NCBI GenBank assembly: GCA_020845895.1 | Contig: JADLEX010000057.1 | Span: forward strand, 1-64,000 | Reading direction: 5' to 3' | DNA: 64,000 nucleotides | Source of the DNA: Deltaproteobacteria bacterium | GTDB lineage: Bacteria > Lernaellota > Lernaellaia > JACKCT01 | Shown here: positions 28,005 to 50,241 of the stretch, piece after piece | How positions within the stretch are numbered: position 1 is the first letter of the stretch | Layout of the letters: each line of letters opens with the position of its first letter | Made by a program: the position numbers and the translations under genes | The notes under the pieces: generated by a model | What the model was told of the DNA's origin: nothing | The model's input: only the letters and a program-made list of their open reading frames with translations | The model's database searches: none

Positions 28005-29098
28005 CGACGCGCGTCGCGAATGCCCGGCGAATCCTGGATGATCAGGCGCTCGATGCCCTGGTCGTCTGGAACATGGTGAACGTGCGCTATCTGTCGGGGT
28101 TCACGGGCACTGAAGGCGCGCTCGTCATCACGCGTGATCGCGCGCAGTTCCTGACCGACTCGCGGTACGCGACGCAGATTCGCGACGAGGCGCCGGCGTT
28201 CGAACATCGGATAGCCCCGGCAAAAATCGCCAACATCGCGGCGGCTCTCACCGACATCAAGGCCGAACACGTCGGATACGAGGACGAAATCCTGCCGGTC
28301 GCGCGCGCGGTCGCGCTGCGCGACTCAACGCCGGGAGTCGAGTGGATCGGATTGGGGACACGTCTCGACGCCCTGCGTCTGCGCAAGGACCCGGCCGAGA
28401 TCGGCCTGATGCGCCGCGCGGCGCGGATCGCGGAAACCGGTCTCGACCGGGCGCTCGGGATGCTGCGGCCCGGTGTGACCGAGCGGCAGGTGGCGCTGGC
28501 GTTGGAATTCGCGATGCGCGAGGCCGGCGCGAGCGGCACGAGCTTCGACACGATCGTGGCGTCGGGTCCGCGCGGCGCGCTTCCGCACGGCGTCGCATCG
28601 GATCGCACCATCGGCGCGGGCGAGATGGTGACCATCGACTTCGGGTGCGTGGCCAACGGGTACTGTTCGGATCAGACCGTCACCATCGGCGTCGGACACG
28701 TGAACGGAGAGATGCGCCGGGTGTATGATATTGTCCTTGAAGCGCAGCATCGCGCCATCGACGCATTGCGTCCCGGCGTTTCGCTGCGCGAGGTGGACGC
28801 CCTCGCGCGCGGCGTGATCGCCGACGCGGGGTTCGACGAATTCTTCGGACACGGCCTGGGACACGGCGTGGGCATGGAGATTCATGAAAGTCCGCGAGTG
28901 TCCGGTTCGTCGGAATACACCGCGGAGGAGGGGCACGTCGTCACGATCGAGCCGGGGATCTATATTCCGGGTCGGTTCGGCGTGCGAATCGAGGATACGT
29001 TGGTGGTGACGCAGTCCGGTTGCGATCGCATCACCTCGATCGACAAGTCCTGGCGGGCGGTCGACGGGGTTACGGATGTTGTTGGGGGGCGGTCTTGA
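28001..29098 (+). CDS. M24 aminopeptidase (Xaa-Pro type)
   Basis: A creatinase-fold metallopeptidase that removes N-terminal residues before proline or splits X-Pro dipeptides. The N-terminal creatinase domain is MTTRVANARRILDDQALDAL onwards; the catalytic domain has metal ligands in VTIDFGC (Asp), YCSDQTVT (Asp), FGHGLGHGVG (His), TIEPGIYI (Glu) and VRIEDTLVV (Glu). All five are present. 365 residues. ATG 28001 overlaps the aroQ stop. Its TGA overlaps the TTG start of the giant TPR gene. Confidence 0.93.
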   Translation: MTTRVANARRILDDQALDALVVWNMVNVRYLSGFTGTEGALVITRDRAQFLTDSRYATQIRDEAPAFEHRIAPAKIANIAAALTDIKAEHVGYEDEILPVARAVALRDSTPGVEWIGLGTRLDALRLRKDPAEIGLMRRAARIAETGLDRALGMLRPGVTERQVALALEFAMREAGASGTSFDTIVASGPRGALPHGVASDRTIGAGEMVTIDFGCVANGYCSDQTVTIGVGHVNGEMRRVYDIVLEAQHRAIDALRPGVSLREVDALARGVIADAGFDEFFGHGLGHGVGMEIHESPRVSGSSEYTAEEGHVVTIEPGIYIPGRFGVRIEDTLVVTQSGCDRITSIDKSWRAVDGVTDVVGGRS

Positions 29099-32000
29099 GC
29101 AAAGGCAAGAACAAGGGTTCCTTCCTGTCGAAAATCCGGCAGAAGCCCAAGGAGAAAATCGATCCTGAACTCCAGGCCCTGCTCGAATCCGTGCAGGACG
29201 ACCCGGAGGACATGCGCGCTCGGCTGAAGCTCGCCGACGGCTACCTCAAGCGCGAGGACAAACTGCGCGCCCTCGACCAGTACCTCACGGTCGCCGAGAC
29301 GTACGCCCAGAAGGGCTTTTATCCCAAGGCCGTCGCCGTCTACAAACAGGCCCTCGCGATCGATCCCGACATGATCGAGGTCTATCTCAAGCTCGCGGGT
29401 CAGTACGAAAAATTGGGGCTCATGGGCGAGGTCGTCGCCCAGTACACCAAGGCCGCCGCGATTCACGAAAAGGCGGGCCGGAAAAAAGAGGCGATCGACA
29501 TCTTCCGCTCGCTGATCGACATGTCGCCCGACAACGCGGTCGGCCGCCTCAAGCTCGGCCAGCGCTATCTGAAGGAAGGTTTTGCCAACGAGGCGATCGC
29601 GGAATTTCTCAAAGCCGCCCGCGTCTTCGAGAAGCAGGGCGAGACGGGCGACGTCCGCCGCCTCTACGAAAGCCTGCTCGAAAAGGGTATCGAGGACATG
29701 CGCGTCGTGCATCCGCTGCTCGAGATCTACCGGGCGGCGGACGAGCACGAACTGATCCTCCAGCGGCTGTCCGCGCTCAAGACCGACGTCGCCGGATCGG
29801 CGAGCGTGCTGGAAATTCTCGCAGGGTCGAGCGCGGCGCTCGGCCGCAAGGCATCGGCGATCGCGGCGTACCAGCAGCTCATCGCGCTCTACGAACAGGC
29901 GCGCCGTCCGGACAAGGTCCACGATATCTGTATCGAGATTCTGCGGGTCGACGAGACGCACGTCGCCGCGCTCGCCAATGTCGCCGCGTGGCGCGAAAAA
30001 ATCGCCGAGCAGGAGCGTGAACGCGCCCGCCGCGCCGAGGAAGAAAAGGCCCGCCGGGCCGAGGCCGAGCAGGAGGCGGAAGTCGATATCGAACTCGAGG
30101 GCGAGGAAGACCTCGATCTCGACCTCGCGGACCGCGAAGAAGCAGCTCGGATCGCCGCCGAGGGTCTGGACGTGGACGAGGCGCGCGTCGATCGCAGCGT
30201 GCCCGATGCCGTCGAAGAGGACGTGTGGGAAGTCGCCGAGGGCGAGTCGCCGCCCACCGAGGCCGTGGACGTATTCGAAGACTCCAAGGCGCACGAGGCC
30301 GAAGACCACATCCCGATGATGGATGTGGTCGAACACGGATACGTGGCCGAGGAAAAGGACGCGCACCGCGTCGATCGCGCCGAGCCCGAAGACCACGAGG
30401 TCGAATTCGAAGATCACGCCGAGCCGGTCGCAGCGAAATCCGATGAAGACCTGGACCTGTTTGCTCCCGAGGTTGGCGAGGCCCAAGACGCCGAGGTCGA
30501 TCTGTTCTCCGAAGGCGCCGAGGCCGGGACGGACGACGTCGACCTGTTCGCGGCGGCCGAGCCAGAAGCGGCCGAAGCGGCCCGCGTGGACGTCACACCC
30601 AAGACCGAGCCGGAACCCGAGCCGGAACCCGAGCCCGAGCCCGAAATTCCGGTCGTCGATTGGGATTCGCTTTCGCCCGAGGGCGCGCGCGATCAACTCC
30701 ATCTCGCGCGCATGGCCTGCGAAGATATCGGAAAACTCGAGCGCTTCGACACCTATCTCGATGACCTCGCGGTCGAGCACCCCGAGGACCTCGTCGTGCT
30801 CCAGGCGCAGCACGACCGCGCGCTCGAAACGGGCGACGACGACGCGCGATTGGCGCATCTGTATGACCTCGTCGCCGCAGCGCGAAAGTCCGATTCTGAG
30901 GACTTTGACCGCTGGCTCGAAGTGTTGGTCGAAGCCGCACCCGACGATCTCGATGCCGCCGGTCAGCTCGCCGACCGCCTGCACGCGACGAATCCCGACC
31001 GCGCCATCGTGATGCACACGTCGCTCGCGCGACGCGCCGCTGAACGTGGTGACACCGGCGAGGCGGAACATCGCCTCGGACGCGTACTCGACATCCATCC
31101 CGAAAATCCGGGGGCGCTGGGCGACCTGCTCGATCTGCACCGGCGCACCGGCGACGAAAACAAGACCTTCGCGACGTTGATGCGCCTCGCGCCCGTCGTG
31201 GAGAATTCCGGCGATGGCGCCCGCGCCCGCGCGTTGCTCGACGAAGCCCTGCGCCTGCGTCCGGAGTCGGACGAGGCGGCCGACGCGCTGCTGGGTTTGT
31301 ACGATCGCGGGAAAGACGTCGGCGGAGCCACGGCGCTCCTGTGGAAACTCGGCCGCGACGCCGAAGACGCCAACCGCACCGACGAAGCCGAACGGCATTT
31401 CGATGCGCTGCTCACCCGCGACCCCGATCACGCCAAGGCGCGCGAGCACCTCAAGGATCTCTACATCCTGACCGATCGGCCCGCCGAGGCAATCGCGCAG
31501 TTGATTTCGCTCGCGAACGTCGCCGCCGAAGCGCGGCGATATCGCGACGCCGAGTCCGCGTTGCGCGAGGCGCTCGGCCTCGACCCGGCCTCCGACTCGG
31601 TGCGTCTCGCGCTCGCCGACCTGCTGGAGCGCGCCGATCGCCCGGTCGATGCGGCCAACGAACTGGCCGCTCTGGCCGACGCGTGGACCGCGAGCCATCC
31701 CGAAAAGGCGTCCGAAGCTTACGAGCGGGCGCTCGCGCTGGCGCCCTCGTCCGCCGCGCTCATCCGCCGGCACGCCGAGTTCCTGCGCAAGACCGGCAAG
31801 GGCGAGCAGGCCCTCGCGCGGCTGTACCAACTCGCCGATCTCGCCTCGCGTCAGGGGCGAACGGAAGAAGCCGAGTCCGCGTACCAAGAGATCCTGGTGC
31901 TGGATTCCGCCGCGGATCGCGCCCACTTGGCGCTCAAGGATCTGTACGTCACGACCGGACGCACCGATCAGGCCGTCGCCCAGCTCCTCGCCCTCGCCGA

Positions 32001-35000
32001 GTCCACCCGCAAGAGCGGCGACGACTCGACCTCCCTGGCTTACCTCGGCGAAATCGTCGGTCTCGCGCCCGAAAACCTCGCGGCGCACCGGGCGATCCTC
32101 GAACTGCATGAAGCGAGCGGCAACGTGGACGCGGCGGTGGGCGAGATGATCGCCATCGCGCGGATCCAGGCGGCCGCCGGAAACACCGCCGACGCCGCGA
32201 CGGCCCTGCGCAAGGTCCTGAAGCTCCGTCCCGAGGACACCGAGGCGTTCGAGCGCCTCAAGTCGATCTACATCGAATCGGGCGACGAAAAACGCGCGCT
32301 CGAATTGCTGCTCGGACGCGCCGAGCGCATGGAAAAGGCCGGCCGACTCGAAAACGCCCTCGCCGCGATCGACGAGGTGCTCGTTCTCGTTCCCGGACGC
32401 ATCGACGCCCTCGAGGCGCGCAAGGCGTTGCTCCTCGCCCTCGGCAACACCGACGGCGCGGTGTCGACGCTGCGTCTGATGGCGGCCGTGCACCGCGGCG
32501 CGGATCGGTCGGCCGATGCCGAAAACACACTGCGCGAGATCGTGCGTCTGGCCCCCTCGGACATGGCCGCGCGCGAGGAACTCGCCGAACTCTATCTCGC
32601 CTCGAATCGCGCCGAGCGAGCCGTCGCTCCCTACGAAGAACTCATTGACCTCGCCGAAGCGTCGGGCGACGTGGACGCGATCGAGCGCTATGCCCGGGCC
32701 GTTTTGCAAATCGCGCCCGATCGCACGCGGGCTCTCGAGGCACTGGCCGAACTCTACGAGCATCAGGAGCGGGGCTCGGACGCCGCGAAGATCTTTGAGA
32801 CCCTCGCGGATCTCGCCGTCGCCGGAAACGATGTCACCGCCGCGCGCGATTGGCTCGGACGGGCGTCGATGCTGCTTCCCGATGATCCGGGACCGCTCAC
32901 TCACCTGCTCGAAATCGCCCGATCTCAGGGCGACGCGGCGGTCCAGGTGCGCGCGCACATCGATCTCGCCACGCTCTTTTCACGTCTCGGTCAAAACGAC
33001 CACGCCGAAACGCAGCTCAACTTCGCGCTTTCGGTCGAACCCGGCGCGGATGCCGCGCTCGACGCCCTCGTCGCCCTCTACCGGGCGACCGACCGCGACG
33101 CGCTCACTATTCCGCACCTTGTCGCACTGGCCGAGATCGAGATCGAACGTCAGAACACATTCGCCGCCGAGGAGCGCCTGAATGCGGTTCTCGAGATCGA
33201 CGACGGCCACGCGGGCGCGCTCGAATTGCTGTCGGACCTGCACCTGCGTTCGGGCGATACCGACCGGGCCGTGCGCGAACTCTTCCGCCTCGTCGCCGCC
33301 GCGCAGACGCGCGGGGACATCGAGAGCGCCTTGGCGACGCTGGCGCGCGTCGAATCCGCCGACCCGACAAACATCGAGGCGATCCGCCGTCGCGCCGATC
33401 TGCTCGAAGAGGCGGGACGCCCCGACGAGGCCGTCGACGAGCTCACTCGCCTCGCAAACGCGCTGCGTCGCGCGGGCGATACCGACGAAGCGGGGAAGAC
33501 CCTGCGACGAATCCTCGCGGCCGACCCGCGCCACGAGGCGGCGCACGTCGAGCTCGTCTCGCTGTGCCGCGAATCGGGCGACACCGACGGGGCGATCGAC
33601 GAACTCTTCCGCCGCGCCGATATCCTCACCGCCGACGGCGAAACCGCCGCCGCGGCCGCGGCGCTCGGCGAAATTCTGGAAACGGCGCCCGGCAACGATC
33701 GCGCCCTGTGGGATCTGGCGGATCTGCACGAACTCACCGGCGAAATCCCCGAAGCGATCGACCGGCTCATGTCGCTCGCCCGTTACGCCCACGACGCGGG
33801 TCGTCCCGAACGCCGCGAGGAAGCGCTGCGCCGCGTGATCGCCCTCGATCCGGTGCACGGCGAAGCACAAATCCAGCTCCGCGCCCATTACGCCGAATCG
33901 GGCCGAACCGAGCAGGCGATCGAATTCGCTTACGATTATGCCGCGCGGCTGATTGCCGGCAGGCAGAGCGACCGTGCCGAGGCCGTCTATCGCGACATCC
34001 TGCGTCTCGACGCGACCTCCGACCGCGCGGCCGAGCAGCTCGTGGATCTCGCGATCGGCCGAGGCGACACCGCTCGTGCCATCGAAGTCCTGCGGGGACG
34101 GGCCGACGCCGCCGAAGCAGCGGGCGACACCGACCGGCTCGTGTCCGTTCTGCGCCGGTGCGTCGCGATCGACGCCTACAATCCCGATGAATGGGACCGG
34201 CTCAAGGACGTTTATGTCGCAGCAGGTCGCCGCGCCGAGGCGATCGAAACGATCTTCGAATCGCTCGAAACCCTCTCCGAAGCGATGTCCCCGGACGAGA
34301 TCGAGGGCCGCCTCCTCGAAGTGCTCGCGCTCGACGACGGAAACACGCGCGCGCTGCGCCGGCTCGGCGATCACTATCGACGCCAGGGCGCTGCCGATCG
34401 CGCCGCCGACGCGCTCATGCGCCTGGGCGAAAGCTGCGCCGAAGCCGGCGAATCCGCGGCGGCCCGCGCCGCATTCGCCGAGGTCGCGATGATCGATCCC
34501 AACCATGCCCCGGCGCTGGTCCGGCTCGCCGATCTCGCGCTCGCCGCGGGCGATGGCGACGAGGCCGCGAGCGCATACCTGCGGGCCGCAGGAACGCTCG
34601 TTGGGCAAGGCGATCACGACGGCGCAATCCGCGCGGCGAACGCCCTGCTCGAAATGGGCCGTCACGAGGAACGCGCGCTCGCCATCGCGCGCGACGCGTA
34701 CTCGGCGAAGGGCGACGCCGTCGCCGTGGCGGAGATCGAGCGTCGTCTCGCCGACCTCGCCGAATCGACCGGCGATCTTTACGCCGCGGAAGGCGCGCTG
34801 CGCGCCATCGCCCAGAGGGACGTGGAAGACTTCACGATTCGCGGCCGACTCGCCGACGTGCTGGCCCGCGAGGGCAAGACCACCGAGGCACTCGCCGAAC
34901 TCTACGCCGTCGCCGATCTCGCGGCGAAGGCGGGGGACGTCGCCACGCAGGCATCGGCGCTCACGCGCGCGGTCGAGATCGATCCCGACAACGCGAAGGC

Positions 35001-37170
35001 GCATCGGCGCCTGCTGCGCCTGCACGAAGCCGCCGGCGACACCGAGGCCGTGCGCGCCCGCATCGACGAGCTCATCCGCATCCATTCCGGGCTTCGCGAA
35101 AACGAAGAGGTCGAGGCGCTCTACCTGCAACGGTTGCAGCTCGATCCGACCGACGCCCCAGCGCGCGAAGCGCTCTCGGAGCTTTATGTCGCGTCGGGCG
35201 AGACCGACAAAGCGCAGCTCTTCCTCTTCGACGAAGCCGAGACCGCGGAGCACGAGGGCCGCGAGGAAGACGCACTGGCGCTCTACGAACGCATTGTCGC
35301 GCTCGACGGCGCGAACGAGGCCGCGCGGCTGCGCGTTCACGAACTGCACAGGGCCGCGGGGAACATGGCGGCCGCGGCCGGCGCGCTGATCGGTCTCGTC
35401 GATCAGTGCATGGCGGCCCGGCGATACCACTCGGCCGAGAAGCATCTGCATGCGATTCTGTCGATGGACCCGACGAACGGCGCGGCCAAGGAGCGCATCG
35501 CCGATCTGTTCATGCGCTCGGCGCAGGAGAAAGCGCAGGTCGAGAGCCTCTTGCGACTCGCTGAAAAAGCGCTGGGCGCGGGGCAATACGAAGAGGCGCG
35601 CGCCCGGCTCGACGACGTGCTCGCGCTCGATCCGGAGAATCCCGAGGGACGCAACCTCGTCAACGCGATCCACTTCCGCCAGCCGGCGGTGGCCCGGCGC
35701 GAAGCCGGAGCGATCTTCGAGGATGTCGAAGTCGAGTATCAGGACCAGGGAGACGTGGCGATCTCGTGGAGCGACGAGGATCGCGGACGGCAGCCCGCGA
35801 TGGAGGAACCGCACGCCGCCGCGTCGTCCGCGTTCGCGGACACGTCGGCCGAAATCGATCTCTTCTCCGAGGGCGGCGAGCCGCGTGACGTCGAGTCGGG
35901 CTTCGACATCGATACCGGTGAAGGCGACGTCGCTGACGCCGTCGAGTCGCCGGTGGTGGACATCTTCGCCGCGCCGTCCGCCCCCGCGGACGAGACTCTG
36001 GACGGTGAAGAGGGCGAACTTGCCGCAGCCGCCGAGGCCGCGGACTTCAGCGTGGACGCTTTCGCGGTGCGCGAAGACGAGGCCCGTACGACCGAGATCG
36101 TCGCCGAGCCGGTGGATCTGTTCGGATCGGTGACCGAGGAACCGCGCCTGCCCGAGCCCATGCCCCAGGCCGAGCCCGCGGACGTGGATCTCTTCGGCGA
36201 CGGGGACGATTCCGCGCCCGAACCCGAGGTCGACCTGTTCGGCGAGTCGGCGAAGCCCGAATCCGCGCCGCCGTCGGAGTGGCCGGATGTCGAATTGCGC
36301 CCGGGCGGCGATCTCGAATCGACGACGGGCCCCGCGGAACCGTCGTTTGAGATCGTACACGAAGACGGTCTCGCGACGGACGAGGTGGATCTGTTCGACC
36401 GGCCGGACGCGGGATCGGACGACGTCGATCTGTTCGCGCCGACCGAGGAGACGCTCGAAGAAGCCACTGCCGGAGACGACCTCGTTGAGGAATTGCTCGA
36501 ACTCGAGGAACGCAAACCGGCGCGCGACGAGGCAAAGGGCATCGGAGAACTGCTGCTCGACAGCCTGATCGGTCCGGAGAAAACACCGGCGCCGATTCCC
36601 GAGCGCCGCGCCGTCGAGACCGACATGCTCGACGACTTCATCAGCGCGCTCGGCGGCGAGTCGGCCGGCGCGCCTTCCGCGGCGCCCGGCGACTTCCTCG
36701 CGGACCTCGCCTCCGAATTCCGCAACATGCTCGGCGGCGAAGCGCCGCAGGACGCGCAGGCGCATTACGCGCTCGGCATCGCATTCCGCGAGATGGAGCA
36801 GACGAACGACGCCATCACCGAATTCGAAAAAGCGCTCGCGCTCGGCGACGAGGCGATGGAATCGCAGATCGCGCACCAGCTCGCTCAGTGCTACATCGAG
36901 GCCGAGACTTGGGACCAGGCGGCGGAGTACCTGTCGCAGACGCTCGACGCCACGGAGCGCGGCGGCGGCGACATCGATCCGGTGGACGTGCGCATGGATC
37001 TGGGGCTCGCGTACAAGGCGATGGGTAAGCTCAAGCGGGCGTTGGCGACCTTCCAGGAAGTCGATGCGCAAAACGCCAACTACCGGGGCGTGAAAGCCGA
37101 AATCCAGAGCCTGAAGAAGCAGCTCGGCGAGGGCGGCGACGAACCGCCCGACAACATCAGCTTCGTGTGA
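29095..37170 (+). CDS. Giant TPR protein (2,691 residues) with two acidic VDLF-repeat linkers
   Basis: Start TTG 29095 overlaps the M24 peptidase stop (TTGA) after a G-rich ribosome binding site. Residues 1-300 form the basic N-terminus SKGKNKGSFLSKIRQKPKEK and TPRs (GFYPKAVAVYKQALAIDPDM). Residues about 300-520 are an acidic linker with a PE run. Residues about 520-2190 are an array of TPR-like units, by length roughly 45-50. A second acidic linker spans about 2200-2535, and a final TPR domain about 2540-2685. Both linkers repeat the motif (D/E)-(V/I/L)-D-L-F, nine exact copies (first at 30448-30462) plus variants. No enzyme motif, signal peptide or TM segment. A cytoplasmic scaffold is inferred; the N-terminal module resembles TPR proteins of other Deltaproteobacteria. 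Confidence 0.92.
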   Translation: MSKGKNKGSFLSKIRQKPKEKIDPELQALLESVQDDPEDMRARLKLADGYLKREDKLRALDQYLTVAETYAQKGFYPKAVAVYKQALAIDPDMIEVYLKLAGQYEKLGLMGEVVAQYTKAAAIHEKAGRKKEAIDIFRSLIDMSPDNAVGRLKLGQRYLKEGFANEAIAEFLKAARVFEKQGETGDVRRLYESLLEKGIEDMRVVHPLLEIYRAADEHELILQRLSALKTDVAGSASVLEILAGSSAALGRKASAIAAYQQLIALYEQARRPDKVHDICIEILRVDETHVAALANVAAWREKIAEQERERARRAEEEKARRAEAEQEAEVDIELEGEEDLDLDLADREEAARIAAEGLDVDEARVDRSVPDAVEEDVWEVAEGESPPTEAVDVFEDSKAHEAEDHIPMMDVVEHGYVAEEKDAHRVDRAEPEDHEVEFEDHAEPVAAKSDEDLDLFAPEVGEAQDAEVDLFSEGAEAGTDDVDLFAAAEPEAAEAARVDVTPKTEPEPEPEPEPEPEIPVVDWDSLSPEGARDQLHLARMACEDIGKLERFDTYLDDLAVEHPEDLVVLQAQHDRALETGDDDARLAHLYDLVAAARKSDSEDFDRWLEVLVEAAPDDLDAAGQLADRLHATNPDRAIVMHTSLARRAAERGDTGEAEHRLGRVLDIHPENPGALGDLLDLHRRTGDENKTFATLMRLAPVVENSGDGARARALLDEALRLRPESDEAADALLGLYDRGKDVGGATALLWKLGRDAEDANRTDEAERHFDALLTRDPDHAKAREHLKDLYILTDRPAEAIAQLISLANVAAEARRYRDAESALREALGLDPASDSVRLALADLLERADRPVDAANELAALADAWTASHPEKASEAYERALALAPSSAALIRRHAEFLRKTGKGEQALARLYQLADLASRQGRTEEAESAYQEILVLDSAADRAHLALKDLYVTTGRTDQAVAQLLALAESTRKSGDDSTSLAYLGEIVGLAPENLAAHRAILELHEASGNVDAAVGEMIAIARIQAAAGNTADAATALRKVLKLRPEDTEAFERLKSIYIESGDEKRALELLLGRAERMEKAGRLENALAAIDEVLVLVPGRIDALEARKALLLALGNTDGAVSTLRLMAAVHRGADRSADAENTLREIVRLAPSDMAAREELAELYLASNRAERAVAPYEELIDLAEASGDVDAIERYARAVLQIAPDRTRALEALAELYEHQERGSDAAKIFETLADLAVAGNDVTAARDWLGRASMLLPDDPGPLTHLLEIARSQGDAAVQVRAHIDLATLFSRLGQNDHAETQLNFALSVEPGADAALDALVALYRATDRDALTIPHLVALAEIEIERQNTFAAEERLNAVLEIDDGHAGALELLSDLHLRSGDTDRAVRELFRLVAAAQTRGDIESALATLARVESADPTNIEAIRRRADLLEEAGRPDEAVDELTRLANALRRAGDTDEAGKTLRRILAADPRHEAAHVELVSLCRESGDTDGAIDELFRRADILTADGETAAAAAALGEILETAPGNDRALWDLADLHELTGEIPEAIDRLMSLARYAHDAGRPERREEALRRVIALDPVHGEAQIQLRAHYAESGRTEQAIEFAYDYAARLIAGRQSDRAEAVYRDILRLDATSDRAAEQLVDLAIGRGDTARAIEVLRGRADAAEAAGDTDRLVSVLRRCVAIDAYNPDEWDRLKDVYVAAGRRAEAIETIFESLETLSEAMSPDEIEGRLLEVLALDDGNTRALRRLGDHYRRQGAADRAADALMRLGESCAEAGESAAARAAFAEVAMIDPNHAPALVRLADLALAAGDGDEAASAYLRAAGTLVGQGDHDGAIRAANALLEMGRHEERALAIARDAYSAKGDAVAVAEIERRLADLAESTGDLYAAEGALRAIAQRDVEDFTIRGRLADVLAREGKTTEALAELYAVADLAAKAGDVATQASALTRAVEIDPDNAKAHRRLLRLHEAAGDTEAVRARIDELIRIHSGLRENEEVEALYLQRLQLDPTDAPAREALSELYVASGETDKAQLFLFDEAETAEHEGREEDALALYERIVALDGANEAARLRVHELHRAAGNMAAAAGALIGLVDQCMAARRYHSAEKHLHAILSMDPTNGAAKERIADLFMRSAQEKAQVESLLRLAEKALGAGQYEEARARLDDVLALDPENPEGRNLVNAIHFRQPAVARREAGAIFEDVEVEYQDQGDVAISWSDEDRGRQPAMEEPHAAASSAFADTSAEIDLFSEGGEPRDVESGFDIDTGEGDVADAVESPVVDIFAAPSAPADETLDGEEGELAAAAEAADFSVDAFAVREDEARTTEIVAEPVDLFGSVTEEPRLPEPMPQAEPADVDLFGDGDDSAPEPEVDLFGESAKPESAPPSEWPDVELRPGGDLESTTGPAEPSFEIVHEDGLATDEVDLFDRPDAGSDDVDLFAPTEETLEEATAGDDLVEELLELEERKPARDEAKGIGELLLDSLIGPEKTPAPIPERRAVETDMLDDFISALGGESAGAPSAAPGDFLADLASEFRNMLGGEAPQDAQAHYALGIAFREMEQTNDAITEFEKALALGDEAMESQIAHQLAQCYIEAETWDQAAEYLSQTLDATERGGGDIDPVDVRMDLGLAYKAMGKLKRALATFQEVDAQNANYRGVKAEIQSLKKQLGEGGDEPPDNISFV

Positions 37171-37930: not shown

Positions 37931-40915
37931 CTACAGCCAGGCGTCGAGGCCGGTTTCGCGCAGCACCTCGCGCAGCCGCTCCACGCCTTCATAATTGGGG
38001 CAGCGCGTGCAGATCGGATCGAAGAGCGGCTTGTCGTTGGCGAAGCGGTAGTCGCGGTGCGTCGCCATGTACTTGCCGGCCACGCGGGCGCGGTCGTAGT
38101 CGTCGCCCGTCCAGATGTCGCGGAATCGCGCGGTGTTGACGTCGTGCACGACCTTCGGGCTGCAACAGTAGCTCACGCGCCCGTCGGCCCAGACGCGGGA
38201 GAACGCCCATCCCACGAGGCAGCCGTCGTCGAGATACCGCGTGCCGCTCCAGTTCTGCGCGCTCTCGGCGAGCTGCACGTCGATGTTCTCGACGACCCGA
38301 ATTCCCGCCGTTTCCGCGACCTTTTTCGCGTCCACGATGTGACTTCGCACGCGGGCCAGTTCTTCGTCCGACAGGGCCAGCTCGCGATTGTACGGCTCGA
38401 TCGCCGTGAGCTGGTAACGCAAGTGATCGACGCCGAGACGTGCGCCGAGTTTCGCGAACGACACAATGTCGTCCACGTTCCGATTGCCGATCACGCACAC
38501 CAGCACAACCTCGGGCTTGTCCGACACGTCTCGCCCCTTGATGCGCATGAGCGTTTCCAGATTCGCAATCACGCGGTCGAACTCGTCGTCGGGCGCACCC
38601 GGGTGCGTGCGTCGGTACACCTCGCGGTCCGAGGCCATGAGGCTCACGTACAGCAGGTCGCACCCCGCCTCGACGAGCGTGGTGGCCAGCTCGGGCGTCA
38701 GTCGAATGCCGTTCGTGAAGAGCGTCGTGAAGAGCTTTCGATCCTTCAGATAACGCACCATGTCGGCGATGCGCGGGTGCGTGGTCGGCTCGCCCTTGCC
38801 CGAAAGCACGACGTCCTCTCCCGCATGCAAATCGGCGAGGTCGTCGGCGAGACGCGTGAACACGTCCCAGTCGAGCATGGACTTCTTCCAGTTCGGCCCC
38901 AGATCCTCGCGGCCCTTCGCGAGCGGCGAGTGGAACCAGCACGGCACACAGTCGGTGTTGCACGAGTTCGTCACGTCGAGGTGAAACGTGCGCGGGCCGA
39001 CGAGGGCCATGTTTGCGACGACGCCCAGCGCGCGCAGCCGCTCCGACTCGCGGATGTCGCCGCTCGCCGCCCGGGCGAAACACTCCTGAAGGCTTCGCGT
39101 CGCGGGATCGAGATCGACGCCGATCTTGCCCAGCACCATGCGCGCGCCCGCTAGAAAGTTTTCGACGCGGCCCGAAAGGGTTTCGAGCGGCGTAACCGAC
39201 AGGGCGAGCATTTCGGCGTTTGGCGCGCGTCGCCCCGTGGTCTCCTCGATCAGCGCGGCGATCTTCGGCAGGCGAAAGATGTTGTCCGGCAGCAGCGGAA
39301 CGCGGATTCGATCGCCCGGTGCGGACGCACGTAGCGCCTCGATGGTCCGCGAAAAGCGCCGCCCCTCGCCCAGGATATGGTCGTGCAGCAGGTCGATGTC
39401 CGCCGCGAGGCTGACGAACGGCATGCCGACGCGGATGGGACTCACGGCGTCGGGAAGCACGGCGGAGATCGGCGCGGCTTGCGACGCGGTAGGCCGTGGC
39501 GGCTTCAAGCCCGATGGCGCGGGCGCGACCTGCGGCGACGTCGCGACGAACGCAACCGGGGTGTAACCTTCCGGCGCTCCCGGGGGCTTGGGTGCATTCG
39601 GTCTCGGCCCGCCGTTCGCGCGCGGCGGCTCGGGGCGAGGGCGTTCGTGCGTGATGACGGTCGCGGCGACGGCGGGGAGAGCCGTCGCATCACCAACGAG
39701 CCCGCCGTGACTCGCGGCGATGAGCGCGTCGCGGGAGGCGCCTGCCTTCGCCATGTCGACGAGGCGATCCACCAGCGCGGCATCCTCGGGAGTCAGCCCG
39801 CCGCGGATGCGCATGACCTCCTGATTATGCCCGAGGTTGTCGCAGATGCGAAAACACCCGGGAAGCGGGAAGTTCACGTCGTGGCCGATCTGCATGAGCC
39901 ACGGGTCGTTCTGATCGATCTTGATCGTGTGGCGGCGGAATTCGTCGTGCCGGTCGCCGAACCAGACGTTGTCGAAGCCGTCCTTTGCCTGCCCCGACGG
40001 GATTCGGTGCGATTTGAGACACGCATTCACGAGCCCGGTGGTGGTGATGCGCGTGAAGAACCACCCGGCCGCGCAGGGAATCGTCGCGACGATGCCGTTG
40101 TCGAAGACGCCCTTGAGGGCATCGACGTTGTGCAGGCGGCGCATCATGAGCTCGGTGTGGACGAAAGGCTTGTTGTCCTGCCGGAACTCGGCGTGCCACC
40201 GATCGATCCACGCGATGTGCGACTCGTTGAGGTTGAATATCGACGTGCGGCCGGGGATCGGGTCCATCACCGACAGCTCGACCTCCTCGACGCCGAGATC
40301 GCGCCCGTAGGCGATCATGCCCGGAATCTCGCGGTAGTTGAGGCTGCACACGACGTTGTAGATTTTCACGCGCGGGACGCGCAGACCGGCGGCGCGCCGC
40401 GCGGTAAGCCTTGCCAGCAGATCGGTCACGATGCGAAAGGTCTTTTCGCTTTTGTTCGGATGCAGCTTCGCGTACGTCTCCCCGGTCGCGGCCCAGACGG
40501 AGACGATGAGGTTGTCGAGCCCCACGTCGCACAGCGCGTCGAGCTGCACCTCGTTCGTGCACACGAAGCTCGTGTTCACGGTACAGCGCATCCCGGCGTC
40601 CTTGATCCAACGCACCACGTCGATCAGGTATTTGTAGCAGCTCGGGTCGCCGCCGCCGCCCAGAAACACTTCGGCGACGCGCAGGTCCTTGAGGCGCGGG
40701 ATGAGGTCGAAGACGAACCGCGGCGAATGCTCATCCAGTTCCAGCGTATCGTAGTGATCGCCGTCCCGCAAAAACGGCGAGCGCGCCCAGCACCCGACGC
40801 AGTTGTTGGGGCAGGTGTCCGTCAGGTCGAGATGCACCATCTCGGGCCCGATGAGCGCCCGGTCGCCCAGTTTCATGCCCGCGAGTCGTAGTGCGGTGTC
40901 GCCGTCGATGGCCAA
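37931..40915 (-). CDS. Tandem double radical-SAM/SPASM-like protein
   Basis: 994 residues with two complete radical-SAM modules. Module 1 (about 20-415) has the cluster motif CPNNCVGCW (Cys35, 39, 42) and later CAAGWFFTRITTTGLVNAC and PGCFRIC, a SPASM/twitch-like Cys set. A Pro-rich linker (about 425-480) follows. Module 2 (about 615-994) has CNTDCVPCW (Cys652, 656, 659), VVLSGKGEPTTH, then CLVGWAFSRVWADGRVSYC and CTRCPNYEG. Both CX3CX2C motifs are intact, so each half should make a 5'-deoxyadenosyl radical. Start TTG 40915 follows AGAGGAC. No RiPP-like precursor peptide is evident; substrate unknown. Radical-SAM with SPASM usually modifies peptides or proteins. Confidence 0.92.
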   Translation of the reverse strand: MAIDGDTALRLAGMKLGDRALIGPEMVHLDLTDTCPNNCVGCWARSPFLRDGDHYDTLELDEHSPRFVFDLIPRLKDLRVAEVFLGGGGDPSCYKYLIDVVRWIKDAGMRCTVNTSFVCTNEVQLDALCDVGLDNLIVSVWAATGETYAKLHPNKSEKTFRIVTDLLARLTARRAAGLRVPRVKIYNVVCSLNYREIPGMIAYGRDLGVEEVELSVMDPIPGRTSIFNLNESHIAWIDRWHAEFRQDNKPFVHTELMMRRLHNVDALKGVFDNGIVATIPCAAGWFFTRITTTGLVNACLKSHRIPSGQAKDGFDNVWFGDRHDEFRRHTIKIDQNDPWLMQIGHDVNFPLPGCFRICDNLGHNQEVMRIRGGLTPEDAALVDRLVDMAKAGASRDALIAASHGGLVGDATALPAVAATVITHERPRPEPPRANGGPRPNAPKPPGAPEGYTPVAFVATSPQVAPAPSGLKPPRPTASQAAPISAVLPDAVSPIRVGMPFVSLAADIDLLHDHILGEGRRFSRTIEALRASAPGDRIRVPLLPDNIFRLPKIAALIEETTGRRAPNAEMLALSVTPLETLSGRVENFLAGARMVLGKIGVDLDPATRSLQECFARAASGDIRESERLRALGVVANMALVGPRTFHLDVTNSCNTDCVPCWFHSPLAKGREDLGPNWKKSMLDWDVFTRLADDLADLHAGEDVVLSGKGEPTTHPRIADMVRYLKDRKLFTTLFTNGIRLTPELATTLVEAGCDLLYVSLMASDREVYRRTHPGAPDDEFDRVIANLETLMRIKGRDVSDKPEVVLVCVIGNRNVDDIVSFAKLGARLGVDHLRYQLTAIEPYNRELALSDEELARVRSHIVDAKKVAETAGIRVVENIDVQLAESAQNWSGTRYLDDGCLVGWAFSRVWADGRVSYCCSPKVVHDVNTARFRDIWTGDDYDRARVAGKYMATHRDYRFANDKPLFDPICTRCPNYEGVERLREVLRETGLDAWL

Positions 40916-43108: not shown

Positions 43109-44527
<1,419 letters not shown>

Positions 44528-44560: not shown

Positions 44561-46543
44561 TCAGGCGAACGAGACCGCCTGACTCTCGATCGCCATGAGG
44601 GGCAGCGTGACGACGAGCGTCGTCCCCTCCCCCACGGCGCTTTGCACCTGGATCATGCCGTTGTGTTTCTTGATGATGCCGAGCGACACGGAAAGACCGA
44701 GCCCCGTACCCTTGCTCTTGCCTTTGGTCGTGTAGAACGGTTCGAAGATCTTCTTCAGGTCGTGCTCGGGAATGCCGGTGCCGGTGTCTTTCACGACGAC
44801 CTCGGCGAACGCGCCGCTGGAATCGTCGTCCACCGAGATCTCGATGCGCGCGGGGGCGTCGGGCAGCGCGGCGCGCCGGTCGCGGATCGCCTCCGCGGCA
44901 TTGAGCACGACGTTGGTGAAGACCTGCTGCAACTGCCGGGCGTCGGCGTGGACGAACAGGTGCCCGGGGAAATATCGCGGCTCGACCGTCACCATGTTCA
45001 TCGCGCCGTAGTTGCGGATGAGCCCCAACGTGTCGCGCACGACTTGATTCAGGTCGATCACCTTTTTTGCGATCGGGCGCTCGCGCGCGAAATCGAGCAG
45101 GCCGGCGACGATCTCCCGGCAACGTGTCGTTTCGGCGACGATGATCTCCAGGTCTTCGCGCTCGGGAGCGCCCTCCTTTGCATGCCGCAGCATCAGGCTC
45201 GACAGGCTGAGAATCGACGTCAGCGGATTGTTGATCTCGTGCGCGACGCCGGCGGCGAGACGGCCGATGGAGATCTGCTTTTCGACTTCCGACAGCCGAT
45301 GCTCCGTCGCCTCGCGCAGCATCTGGTCGCGCTCCTTCACCGCCTGAATCATGCGGTTGAATGCTTTCGACAGACGCCCGAGTTCGTCGGAGCTGTGCAG
45401 CCGGACCTTGTGGTCGAGGTCGCCCGCGGCGACCCGGCTCATGCCCTCGGCCAAGTCGGCCAGCGGACGGCCCAGCCACGCGGCGAACAGGTACGACATG
45501 ACGATGCCGAAGAGCATGCCCGCGCCGATGAGGCTGGAGAACAGCGCGATCGTCTTCTCCTGCGCGGCACGGTATTCGCCGACCGTCGTGCCGATGCCGA
45601 GCATGCCGATGATGCGCTCGTTCGCGTCGCGAATCGGGCGGTACGCCGTGTAATATTGGACCTTGGCGACCTCGGCCACGCCGATGTACCGCCCGCCCTC
45701 GCCGATCACCTTTTCCGCGACCCTGGCGTCGGCGGCCGAAAGAATCGGGATCTGGTATTCCTCGGCGGTCGCGTTGCCGGTGTGGACGTTGGCGGTCGTG
45801 ATGCGCCGGTCACCCTGAAACACGGTGGCCGCGACCCCGACGGCGTCGGGCGCGTCGTCGCTCGGGCGCATCGCGCGAATCATCCGCTCCACGGGCGACG
45901 AGCGTCCGTTCACGATCGACGCCGCGAACGCGACGCCGATGAGATTGCGCCGGCGATCGTATACCGGCGCGGCGCACGCGATCGCGAGCATGTGTCCATC
46001 GACACCGAACTCGCGCATGCGCTCCGACAGCGCGACGGACGGGGCGACCAGCGCGACATCGCGAATGGGCAGCAGTAGCGGCGACGCAATGGCGCGCCGC
46101 TGCCGGGCCGCGTCGCGGATGATGTTCCACTCGGCTCCGAGACCATTCAGATCGACGTTGCCCGCGTCGTCGGACTGCGTGACGGAGAGGATGTCGAACT
46201 GCTCGCGGCCGGGAGATAGACGAAGGACCGTTTCGTCCGCGGCCTGGATGTCGGGGTGCGGACCGGCCGCGACCGACTCGAGCATCGTGCTCATGAAGTC
46301 GAGCTCGTTCTGCCACACCTGCCAGGCGATCATGAGGTCGGAGTCGGCCTTCGACTTGGCGAGCGAGAGGATCTGGCTACCGAGCACCGCGTTGCCGATC
46401 GCGATGGTGGCGGTCGCGGAGCTGAAGATCAGCACGACGAACGCGAGCGTCAGGCGGGTTCTCCACGTGATGCGGGCGATCCGCCGCGTCACGGTCTTCA
46501 GGAAGGGCTCGGGTTCGGGGCTTTCGTCGTCGGTGGGCAGCAC
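44561..46543 (-). CDS. Membrane sensor histidine kinase (cache-HAMP-HisKA)
   Basis: The sensor partner of the sigma-54 activator. TM1 at about 28-52 and TM2 at about 325-350 flank a large periplasmic domain of about 270 residues, of the double/single cache type (GNVDLNGLGAEW, GIGTTVGEY near its end). Then HAMP (ADLAEGMSRVAAGDLDHKVR), HisKA (GVAHEINNPLTSILSLS with the phosphorylated His) and HATPase (NVVLNAAEAIRD, DTGTGIPEHD, GTGLGLSVSLG). 660 residues. Start GTG 46543 follows GAGTGGGGA. Cache domains typically bind small organic acids or amines; the ligand is not identifiable. Confidence 0.95.
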   Translation of the reverse strand: MLPTDDESPEPEPFLKTVTRRIARITWRTRLTLAFVVLIFSSATATIAIGNAVLGSQILSLAKSKADSDLMIAWQVWQNELDFMSTMLESVAAGPHPDIQAADETVLRLSPGREQFDILSVTQSDDAGNVDLNGLGAEWNIIRDAARQRRAIASPLLLPIRDVALVAPSVALSERMREFGVDGHMLAIACAAPVYDRRRNLIGVAFAASIVNGRSSPVERMIRAMRPSDDAPDAVGVAATVFQGDRRITTANVHTGNATAEEYQIPILSAADARVAEKVIGEGGRYIGVAEVAKVQYYTAYRPIRDANERIIGMLGIGTTVGEYRAAQEKTIALFSSLIGAGMLFGIVMSYLFAAWLGRPLADLAEGMSRVAAGDLDHKVRLHSSDELGRLSKAFNRMIQAVKERDQMLREATEHRLSEVEKQISIGRLAAGVAHEINNPLTSILSLSSLMLRHAKEGAPEREDLEIIVAETTRCREIVAGLLDFARERPIAKKVIDLNQVVRDTLGLIRNYGAMNMVTVEPRYFPGHLFVHADARQLQQVFTNVVLNAAEAIRDRRAALPDAPARIEISVDDDSSGAFAEVVVKDTGTGIPEHDLKKIFEPFYTTKGKSKGTGLGLSVSLGIIKKHNGMIQVQSAVGEGTTLVVTLPLMAIESQAVSFA

Positions 46544-46907: not shown

Positions 46908-46956
46908 AGCCGAGATTCTCCTTGTTATTCAACGGTTTACCAATGCTCAGGCGGTT

Positions 46957-46971
46957 TGGCACGCGTGTTGC
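46957..46971 (+). promoter_or_regulatory. Sigma-54 promoter (-24/-12)
   Basis: TGGCACG (46957-46963), four bases (CGTG), then TTGC (46968-46971), an exact match to the TGGCACG-N4-TTGC consensus of sigma-54 promoters. Transcription would start near 46983, about 100 bases before the gene at 47084. The adjacent NtrC-type activator supports function. Confidence 0.85.
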
Positions 46972-47083: not shown

Positions 47084-47560
47084 ATGAAACGCGCCATCGC
47101 CTACGTCAGCGACATCATCCTTGGACGCACCGGAGAGGTCATCAGCCGCGAAGAGCAGCGGGACCGGATCACCAAGTACGCCGCCGAGAAGGGCGTCGAG
47201 ATCGTCCGCTGGTTCGAGGACCGCATGTACAACGAGGAACTCATGGAGCGCGCCGGCGTGCAGGCCCTGCTCGCGTGCGACGAACCGGTCGACATGATCC
47301 TCGTCGAGCGCGTGTGGAGCTTCTCGCGTTCGTGGCCGCGCCTCGAGGACCTCTTCAAGACCATCGACCGTAAGGGCCTCACCCTGGCCGCGGCGACCAC
47401 GATGTGGGATTGCATCTCCCAGATGGCGCGCCGCCGCTACGACCTCACGATCCCGGGTCCCGGCCGGCACCCGGTCGTGCGTCGCGAAGAAGTCGAGATG
47501 CCGGCCATTCGCCGTCCGCGCAAGCTCCAGTTCACGCACCTCTATCAGCAGGCCCGGTGA
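47084..47560 (+). CDS. Serine-recombinase-like protein, active site degraded (copy 1)
   Basis: 158 residues with the layout of a resolvase N-terminal domain: start AIAYVSDIILGR, then QRDRITKYAAEKGVEIVRWF, a lost G/RPGxxxxL (ERAGVQALLACDEPVDMIL), and VERVWSFSRSWPRLEDLF where resolvases have VxxxDRLxR. The catalytic YxRVSTxxQ loop is altered (YVSDIILG) and the D-R of DRLxR is replaced by WSFSR, so recombinase activity is unlikely. There is no C-terminal HTH or zinc-ribbon. GGGAG precedes ATG 47084. First gene of the sigma-54 operon. A regulatory, not DNA-cutting, role is inferred. Confidence 0.75.
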   Translation: MKRAIAYVSDIILGRTGEVISREEQRDRITKYAAEKGVEIVRWFEDRMYNEELMERAGVQALLACDEPVDMILVERVWSFSRSWPRLEDLFKTIDRKGLTLAAATTMWDCISQMARRRYDLTIPGPGRHPVVRREEVEMPAIRRPRKLQFTHLYQQAR

Positions 47561-47588
47561 GCGGACGCGGAAGGAAAGGGAGAACGCC

Positions 47589-48038
47589 ATGAGAACCGCC
47601 ATCGCCTACGTCACCGACACGCTGCTGTGCCCCGCCAAGGGGGTCTCGCGGCGAGAGGAACAAAAAGAGCGCCTGCGCGCTTACGCCGCCGAGCACGGCA
47701 TCATGATCGCCGCCTGGTTCGAGGACGAGATGTGCGTTCCCGAGCCGCTGGAGCGCTCGGGCGTGCGCGAGCTGCTCAACTACCGCGACGCGTGCGATGT
47801 CGTCCTCGTCGACCATGCGTGGTGCCTGTCACGCGAGTGGGCGAAGACCAAGCGCGTGGCCGAGGCCCTCGTGTGCAGGGGCCGCGCGCTCGAAGCCGCG
47901 CAGACCGGTTGGGACGGCTGCTCGCAGATGCTGCGCCACTTCTTCGACCCCGACCGCTGGCGTCCCGCGGCCCCGAAGCGCCCCAAGATCGAGAAGGATC
48001 GGAATGTGCCCGTGGCGGCCTATCAGCCCCACGCTTGA
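47589..48038 (+). CDS. Serine-recombinase-like protein, active site degraded (copy 2)
   Basis: 149 residues, paralogous to copy 1 (AIAYVTDTLLCP, EQKERLRAYAAEHGIMIAAWF, VLVDHAWCLSREWAKTKR, WDGCSQMLRHFF against WDCISQMARRRY). The catalytic Ser position is Thr (YVTDTLL) and the arginine motif is again degraded. The C-terminal basic tail (RPAAPKRPKIEK) differs from that of copy 1. AGGGAG precedes ATG 47589. Both copies lie in front of the FeS oxidoreductase, so they may act together, perhaps as a heterodimer. Confidence 0.75.
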   Translation: MRTAIAYVTDTLLCPAKGVSRREEQKERLRAYAAEHGIMIAAWFEDEMCVPEPLERSGVRELLNYRDACDVVLVDHAWCLSREWAKTKRVAEALVCRGRALEAAQTGWDGCSQMLRHFFDPDRWRPAAPKRPKIEKDRNVPVAAYQPHA

Positions 48039-48123: not shown

Positions 48124-50241
48124 ATGTCCTGGACCGAAGCGACCCGAGAGGTCATGTGGAACATCTCGGCTGCCTGGCTCATGTACGTGCTCGCCCTCGT
48201 CGCGGCGGGCATTTTCGCGTACGGAGCTTGGCAGCGCGTCAAATTCTGGATGGCGGGCAAGGCCGACAAGGAGCGTCTCGCCGATTTGGGCAAGCGTTTC
48301 GTCTTCCTCGTCAAGGAACTCCTGATCCAGCGCAAGGCGCGCGAGGAACGCTATCCCGGCATCTTCCATAGCCTGATCTTCTACTCGTTCCTCGTGCTCG
48401 TCGTGACGACCTCCGTTGTCGCGCTCGACTACGACTTCGGCACGCACTTCTTCAAGGGCCCCGTCTATCTGCTCCTGTCGCTGGGCGCGGATTTCGCCGG
48501 CGTGCTGATTCTCATCGGCGTCGGCATGGCCGTGTGGCGACGCTATTTCGTGCGTCCCAAGACGCTGCACACCGAGAGCGGCGACGCGTGGGCGCTCGGC
48601 CTGATCGGCGCGATGGTCGTCACGGGCTTTCTCGTCGAGGGCCTGCGAATCGCTATCGTCGGTGACCCGTGGAAGATCGTCTCACCAGTGGGCACGGTGT
48701 TTTCGTGGCTGTTCACGGGCATCTCGCCCGAAGGCGGGAAGACCGCTCACGCCATGCTCTGGTGGACGCACACCGTCTTCGCCATGGGCTGGATCGCCAC
48801 GCTGCCCTTCACCAAATTCGTCCACCTGCTCGCGATGCCCACCAACATCTTCTTCGCGAAGATGAAGCCGCGCGGCGAGCTGGTGCGTCAGGATCTCGAG
48901 GCGATGTTCGCCGACGAGAACTTCAACGAGGAGACCTTCAGCTACGGCGTGATGACCACGGGCGACCTGACGTGGAAGCAGCGCCTCGAAGCCGACGCGT
49001 GCATCTCGTGCGGACGCTGCGAAGAGATCTGCCCGTCGTTCCAGGCGGGGCAGCCGTTTTCACCGCGCATGTTCATCCAGGGTCTCAAGACGCAGCTCGA
49101 CAAAGAGCAGGAAGCCGCTCGCGCGAAATCCAAAGCCGCCAAGGCGAACGGCGGCGACACGCGCATCGGCGACGCCGCGGCCGCGCCCGAAGCCGGCAAC
49201 GGGCACGCGAATATCGTCGGCGATATCTTCGACGAGGAATTCCTGTGGTATTGCCGCACGTGCATGGCGTGCATGGAGGTCTGCCCGGCGATGATCGACC
49301 ACGTGGACGACATCGTCGACGTGCGCCGTAACGAGGCCGTCATGCAGGGCCGCATGCCGGGCGACGCCGCCCGCGCGATGCGCATGCTCGAAAACCAGGG
49401 CAACCCCTTCGGCCCCGAAACCATGCGCACCGACTGGGTTCAGGAGATGGGCGTTCGCGTGGTGGGCCCGGGCGAAAAAGTGGACGTGCTCTATTGGATC
49501 GGCTGCTGCACCACGTTCGACCCGATCAAGCAGAAGATCGCCTCCGACCTCATCCAGCTCATGACGAAGGCGGGCGTGGACTTCGGCGTGCTCGGCGGCG
49601 ACGAAAAATGCTGCGGCGACCCCGCACGGCTGATGGGACAGGAGATGCTGTTCCAGACGCTCGCCAAACAGCAGGTCGAGATCCTCAACCAGCGCGAGTT
49701 CCGCGTGCTGATGGTTTCGTGCCCGCACTGCTACAACGTGCTCGCGCACGAATATCCGCAGTTCGGCGGCCACTACAACGTGATGCACCACAGCGAATTC
49801 CTGCACGAGATGGTGTGGAGCAACACGATCGTTCCGCAAAAAGGCAAGCGCCACAACGTCGTCTATCACGACCCGTGCTACCTGGGCCGCTACCAGAAAA
49901 TCTACGATTCGCCGCGCGAAACCCTGAAGTCCGTGCCCGGCATCGAGATCAAGGAGATGAAGAATCACATGGACCGCAGCATGTGCTGCGGCGGCGGCGG
50001 CGGAAACTATTTCTTCGACAACGACAAGGGCGAGCGGCTCAACAACCGTCGCGTGAAACAGGCCGACGAGGTCGGCGCGGACATGATCGTCACCGGCTGC
50101 GCGTATTGCATGCAGATGCTCGTCGACTCCGTGAAACTCATGGATCTCGACGAACGCATCCGCGTCGCCGACATCGCGACCGTCATGCTCGAAAGCCTGG
50201 ACGAAAAACCCAAATCGACTTCCGCGGGCGCGGCTCTTTAG
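48124..50241 (+). CDS. Membrane FeS/CCG oxidoreductase (ETF:menaquinone oxidoreductase-like)
   Basis: 705 residues. Residues 1-240 have about five TM segments (NarI-like cytochrome-b part with several His, e.g. HAMLWWTHTVF, FTKFVHLLAM). Two 4Fe-4S motifs follow: CISCGRCEEICP (from Cys293) and CRTCMACMEVCP (from Cys377). The C-terminal half has two CCG domains (CCTTFDP...DEKCCGDPARLMG; SCPHCYNVL; HDPCYLGRY...MCCGGGGGNYFFD), as in HdrD/GlpC. The layout matches bacterial EMO enzymes, which pass electrons from electron-transferring flavoprotein to menaquinone in fatty-acid and aromatic-acid degraders. No etfAB in the window. Sigma-54 controlled with the two genes upstream. SD GAAGGAG. Confidence 0.88.
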   Translation: MSWTEATREVMWNISAAWLMYVLALVAAGIFAYGAWQRVKFWMAGKADKERLADLGKRFVFLVKELLIQRKAREERYPGIFHSLIFYSFLVLVVTTSVVALDYDFGTHFFKGPVYLLLSLGADFAGVLILIGVGMAVWRRYFVRPKTLHTESGDAWALGLIGAMVVTGFLVEGLRIAIVGDPWKIVSPVGTVFSWLFTGISPEGGKTAHAMLWWTHTVFAMGWIATLPFTKFVHLLAMPTNIFFAKMKPRGELVRQDLEAMFADENFNEETFSYGVMTTGDLTWKQRLEADACISCGRCEEICPSFQAGQPFSPRMFIQGLKTQLDKEQEAARAKSKAAKANGGDTRIGDAAAAPEAGNGHANIVGDIFDEEFLWYCRTCMACMEVCPAMIDHVDDIVDVRRNEAVMQGRMPGDAARAMRMLENQGNPFGPETMRTDWVQEMGVRVVGPGEKVDVLYWIGCCTTFDPIKQKIASDLIQLMTKAGVDFGVLGGDEKCCGDPARLMGQEMLFQTLAKQQVEILNQREFRVLMVSCPHCYNVLAHEYPQFGGHYNVMHHSEFLHEMVWSNTIVPQKGKRHNVVYHDPCYLGRYQKIYDSPRETLKSVPGIEIKEMKNHMDRSMCCGGGGGNYFFDNDKGERLNNRRVKQADEVGADMIVTGCAYCMQMLVDSVKLMDLDERIRVADIATVMLESLDEKPKSTSAGAAL

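Follow-up and report, generated by a model that had tools for sequence, protein, structure and literature searches.

Tandem pseudo-resolvases that precede an ETF:menaquinone oxidoreductase-like gene and may act as protein-protein modules in its control

Introduction

Among serine recombinases, dead copies that are retained for another job appear to be rare, and the libraries and papers searched yielded no earlier family of this kind. Two neighbouring genes in a 64,000-nucleotide stretch of DNA from a genome titled Deltaproteobacteria bacterium (hereafter the window) raise the question of whether they are such copies and, if so, what they might do. A first-pass annotation had described their products as tandem proteins with a resolvase-like layout that had lost the catalytic residues and were under selection for a new role.

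Predicted fold of the two proteins

The two tandem open reading frames were confirmed at 47084-48038, both on the forward strand. Copy A (P0001, 158 aa) occupies 47084..47560 and copy B (P0002, 149 aa) occupies 47589..48038. Both exceeded the Pfam gathering score for the Resolvase domain PF00239 (E=1.3e-9 for P0001 and E=6.2e-6 for P0002), no further Pfam domain passed its cut-off in either protein in the Pfam scan, and these two proteins were the only PF00239 matches in the whole 5.0-Mb genome. The copies are 43% identical to each other over 120 aa without a gap. AlphaFold models made from family alignments (pLDDT 74.7 and 80.1, pTM 0.67 and 0.72 for copy A and copy B, respectively) were used to search the PDB, and both retrieved serine-recombinase catalytic domains (Bxb1, TP901-1, ISC1926 TnpA and Sin) with a probability of 1.00. 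The proposed resolvase-like layout thus held both in the domain search and in the structure prediction of each copy; judging from the models, the two proteins are homologous to serine recombinases and share their fold. In both models the confident fold stops near residue 119 and the remainder is of low confidence, indicating that both proteins lack helix E and the DNA-binding domain. The first-pass annotation had noted the absence of a DNA-binding tail, and the long helix E region proved to be gone as well.

Catalytic residues and their replacements

In serine recombinases, S10 is the nucleophile and the arginines R8, R68 and R71 bind phosphate (PMC4499144). We aligned 22 pseudo-resolvase domains with 17 active serine recombinases from the same searches, which served as the outgroup. 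Arg8, the nucleophile Ser10 and Arg68 were present in 17/17 active enzymes and in 0/22 pseudo-resolvase domains, and Asp67 in 14/17 and 0/22, respectively. P0001 and P0002 themselves lack all four residues, as had been claimed, and searches for a family with the same substitutions did find one, with intact Arg8, Ser10, Asp67 and Arg68 in none of the 22 homologues. The supposed loss of the DRLxR motif was correct for Asp67 and Arg68; its last arginine (Arg71) remains, kept in 18/22 domains, as does Arg45, kept in 20/22. Among the features of an active enzyme (Ser10, the three phosphate-binding arginines, helix E and the DNA-binding domain), Arg71 alone is mostly kept.

Other residues have become fixed or nearly so in the family. 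In copy A numbering, Gln113 occurs in 22/22 pseudo-resolvase domains and 0/17 active enzymes, Ser112 in 22/22 and 6/17, Arg116 in 22/22 and 5/17, and Trp78, a tryptophan at the position of Asp67, in 18/22 and 0/17. The motifs quoted earlier for the two copies (YVSD/YVTD, WSFSRSW/WCLSREW and WDCISQM/WDGCSQM) were found as described; across the family the SQ and the first W are widespread, whereas the second W, like YV[ST]D, is limited to close relatives. Compared with serine recombinases (PF00239; resolvase/invertase, large serine integrases and IS607 TnpA), the pseudo-resolvases therefore share the fold and the layout of the first ~119 residues and keep the equivalents of Tyr6, Gln25 (window numbering), Arg45 and Arg71. 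They differ in lacking Ser10, Arg8, Asp67, Arg68, helix E and the DNA-binding domain, in having gained Gln113 and Trp78, and in being tied to a metabolic operon, not a mobile element.

The replacement of the catalytic residues by a new invariant or near-invariant set could mean that the dead active-site face, with the new Trp78, Ser112, Gln113 and Arg116 and the retained Arg82, binds a ligand, for instance a CoA ester or redox cofactor, and reports it to a two-component system as a small-molecule sensor. Genes judged by eye to be acyl-CoA-synthetase-like lie near three of the receiver-fusion loci described below and near the G783 oxidoreductase locus, which is in keeping with this idea; all the same, we regard it as improbable.

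Distribution and phylogeny of the family

We searched 896 genomes and additionally scanned one genome collection twice with peptide patterns; the scan of that collection based on P0001 alone gave no match, while the alignment-based scan led to the G060 loci. This small, hitherto unnamed family was carried by 10 genomes from about four lineages, counted as the following groups: the window genome (G000) and G002, which belong to different genera of the same family; G060, a metagenome-assembled genome titled Deltaproteobacteria; G586 and G718, from one genus of a phylum represented by three genomes in the search set; and G521, G783, G784, G785 and G786, from a phylum represented by seven. No relative was found in the viral contigs, plasmids or phages searched, and a PADLOC search of P0001, P0002 and the triplet described below returned no match to a defence system. 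Several other matches were inspected and set aside. Those in G001, G006, G002:C6 and G521:C99, and those inspected in the phylum of G060 outside G060 itself, are active or differently degenerate serine recombinases, and L049 and L051 represent a different group of short, degenerate, resolvase-like ORFs (131-133 aa open frame, YIKA..GDR[IV]TRRW) and are not family members. In the literature searched, neither such a family nor a receiver-resolvase fusion is described, which is weak evidence of novelty, as few subscription journals were covered.

In the phylogenetic tree, the pseudo-resolvase family is monophyletic, separated from the active enzymes by a branch with 100/99 support; the long branch of one active sequence, L045, leaves the exact point of attachment unsure. 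The domain occurs as a tandem pair in G000, G002, G586 and G718 and as stand-alone copies in G783, G784, G785 and G786. G060 possesses a single copy, an in-frame doublet (L026:6318-7403, reverse strand) and an in-frame triplet (L018:3711-5219, forward strand); the doublet and the triplet each have their own sigma-54-type site, and the upstream motif TTTTATACATGTATA...TCTATACA is common to both loci. The G586/G718 pair formed a clade of its own, as did the copies of G060, both apart from the G000/G002 copies; a tandem arrangement has therefore probably originated on more than one occasion.

Selective constraints

The values of dN and dS were obtained by a simple Nei-Gojobori count, in which comparisons involving G060 include partly fused ORFs and distant dS values are near saturation. 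The strongest purifying selection was seen among the stand-alone copies of G784-G786 (dN 0.003-0.006, dS 0.26-0.27, dN/dS about 0.01-0.02), and the G718/G586 pair gave dN/dS values of 0.197/1.10 and 0.166/0.49. Between the window and G002, which carries an orthologue of copy B in another genus, dN was 0.40 and dS 0.87 for copy A (ratio about 0.46), and dN was 0.62 and dS 1.08 for copy B (ratio about 0.57). These ratios are only moderately low, illustrating that copy B evolves fast.

The absence of the catalytic residues and of the DNA-binding domain would also be expected if the genes were decaying remnants of a mobile-element resolvase operon. However, the tandem and its synteny are conserved across genera and lineages, dN is below dS, new invariant residues have appeared, the family is monophyletic, and the plasmids and phages searched yielded no match. 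The decay reading is already contradicted, and we give it almost no weight. Since the tandem is kept in another genus, dN lies well below dS in several pairs and synteny is conserved, the earlier claim of selection for a new role rather than decay is upheld: the comparisons of sequences support the view that the pseudo-resolvase pair has been kept by selection.

Promoter and two-component system

A sigma-54 (-24/-12) type promoter element, TTGGCACGCGTGTTGC, lies on the forward strand at 46956..46971 with a consensus score of 24/25, equalled by 0/1000 shuffles (throughout, shuffles preserve base composition only). In the form TTGGCACG-N4-TTGC at 46956, it is among the 4 exact TTGGCACGNNNNTTGC matches in the 5.0-Mb genome. 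Two further exact consensus sites of that genome, C141:58701 and C147:22376 (L059 and L060), precede small ORFs of 146 and 180 aa with signal-peptide-like starts. Across the loci examined, eight have a sigma-54-type element whose distance upstream of the first copy is 64-189 bases and whose score was equalled by no more than 2/1000 shuffles, and the three near-identical G784-G786 loci showed weaker matches (40-47/1000 shuffles equal). In the two receiver-fusion systems tested, the upstream match was weak (58/1000) or at chance level (930/1000; G783 locus). Each of the ten carrier genomes has an rpoN gene, as does G001, a genome with no family member; thus, rpoN alone is not diagnostic. A search for an activator site (UAS) found no inverted repeat upstream in the window, while the upstream regions of the G060 and G784-G786 loci do contain recurrent inverted repeats.

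Divergent from this promoter, on the reverse strand, the window encodes a sensor histidine kinase at 44561..46543 (sCache_3, HAMP, HisKA and HATPase domains in Pfam) and an NtrC-type response regulator at 43109..44527, in which Pfam identified a receiver, a sigma-54 activator domain with a GAFTGA loop and a Fis-type HTH; this regulator is the predicted activator of the 46956 promoter. With a -24/-12 element, an NtrC-type activator and rpoN all present, the sequence marks this as a candidate promoter of a sigma-54-dependent operon. The arrangement resembles NtrC-type sigma-54 systems of the AtoSC/ZraSR type in its kinase with HAMP, its GAFTGA- and Fis-containing regulator and its divergent promoter, but differs in that the output operon starts with pseudo-resolvases and in that one phylum fuses a receiver to the pseudo-resolvase. 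Serine recombinases bind DNA and the genes adjoin the promoter, which might suggest that the pseudo-resolvases are non-catalytic DNA-binding transcription regulators; with helix E and a helix-turn-helix domain both missing and the tail past about residue 119 of low confidence in both models, we consider this very improbable.

A kinase gene is likewise divergently placed in G002, G586 and G718 and at the G060 locus that has a single copy. The window regulator is 63% identical to that of G002 and 60% to that of G060, and regulators across the loci of the lineages are 44-63% identical, with 72% between G521 and G783. The five-gene order of kinase and regulator on the reverse strand, followed by the two pseudo-resolvases and an oxidoreductase gene on the forward strand, is shared by G000, G002 and G586; in G718 the kinase, the pair and the start of the oxidoreductase gene are visible before the contig ends. 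Farther upstream in the window, a 2716-aa protein made up largely of tetratricopeptide repeats is encoded at 29020-37170, and a 994-aa protein combining a SPASM domain with two radical SAM stretches at 37931-40915.

In one phylum, the pseudo-resolvase is fused behind a receiver domain (G521, G783, G784 and G785; L086:8945-9844, L103:5031-5984, L104:7437-8333 and L105:5370-6269). The fusion loci adjoin a histidine kinase and an NtrC-type regulator, and in the two fusions tested both the receiver and the resolvase Pfam domains were above cut-off. Two kinases of this phylum, L086:5902-7479 and L103:1810-3390, have a CxxCH motif at residue 113 that may mark a heme c sensor.

The downstream oxidoreductase gene

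The gene at 48124..50241 on the forward strand, probably the last of the pseudo-resolvase operon, encodes a 705-aa membrane Fe-S oxidoreductase-like protein in which Pfam identified a NarI-like membrane domain (Nitrate_red_gam), a 4Fe-4S domain and two CCG stretches. This is the domain make-up of the membrane oxidoreductase that, in Syntrophomonas and Geobacter, is proposed to hand electrons of the electron transfer flavoprotein (ETF) to menaquinone (PMC3582634, PMC4324140, PMC10818641). The product shares the membrane cytochrome-like, 4Fe-4S and double CCG layout of this ETF:menaquinone oxidoreductase (EMO, DUF224); it differs from known EMOs in that the EMO genes of its clade follow pseudo-resolvase genes behind a sigma-54-type promoter, an arrangement not found in the literature searched.

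A pseudo-resolvase lies directly upstream of an EMO gene on the same strand in eight genomes, the stand-alone copies of G783-G786 being so placed; no EMO was seen beside two of the three G060 loci (the single copy and the doublet). In the EMO tree, the EMOs adjoining pseudo-resolvases came together as a single clade (100/100) and fell into the groups also seen in the pseudo-resolvase tree, and the window EMO grouped with those of other lineages, not with other EMOs of its own class. This clade points to inheritance as a cassette, although the tree is a limited test because 4/9 EMOs are partial and all control EMOs come from the class of the window. Within that class, both genomes with this EMO type carry pseudo-resolvases, and the five without it have none.

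No ETF gene was recognised directly beside the window EMO; EMO paralogues of its class lie directly behind genes judged by eye to be EtfA-like in four cases (L108, L111, L114 and L115). The constant same-strand position before EMO in eight genomes, together with the single clade of EMOs that have no directly adjoining ETF genes where seen, would fit a purely enzymatic part for the pseudo-resolvases, as accessory subunits or assembly or tethering partners that, for example, dock ETF or acyl-CoA dehydrogenase to the cytosolic Fe-S part and have no role in signalling. Receiver fusions beside a kinase make no obvious sense for an enzyme subunit, however, and no EMO was seen adjacent to two of the G060 loci; we judge this explanation unlikely, yet clearly ahead of the sensor idea.

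Possible role of the pseudo-resolvases

The promoter match and the operon order do not reveal the binding partner of the pseudo-resolvases. The receiver fusion speaks for signalling, the constant position ahead of EMO for partnership with an enzyme, and the neighbourhood of a sensor system and a quinone-reducing membrane enzyme suggests that a recombination fold has been reused for signalling or electron-transfer control. We tentatively prefer, with confidence just short of even, the reading that P0001 and P0002 are domesticated, non-catalytic resolvase domains that serve as protein-protein modules in the circuit controlling this EMO, their molecular function being deduced from sequence. Under this protein-protein module reading, the kinase/NtrC pair would sense a redox or metabolite signal and turn on the operon via sigma-54, and the resolvase-fold proteins, which would not recombine DNA, would pair with each other; we propose that such pairing accounts for the tandem, doublet and triplet forms. 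As adaptors or feedback components, the pseudo-resolvases may then connect the output of EMO with the sensing system, and in the phylum where a receiver is fused beside a kinase, the pseudo-resolvase could be addressed by phosphorylation directly. Somewhat more tentative still is the broader picture of a serine-recombinase fold turned into a receiver-addressable protein-protein signalling module linking a two-component system with the state of an ETF:menaquinone oxidoreductase, within a regulator-adaptor-enzyme cassette that spread between phyla.

Most of what is known about how electrons from fatty acids reach the quinone pool comes from syntrophs, for example Syntrophomonas (PMC3582634, PMC4324140). 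Should the proposed working of the cassette be correct, the pseudo-resolvases would represent a new regulatory domain and would offer a handle on how little-studied anaerobes control this step.
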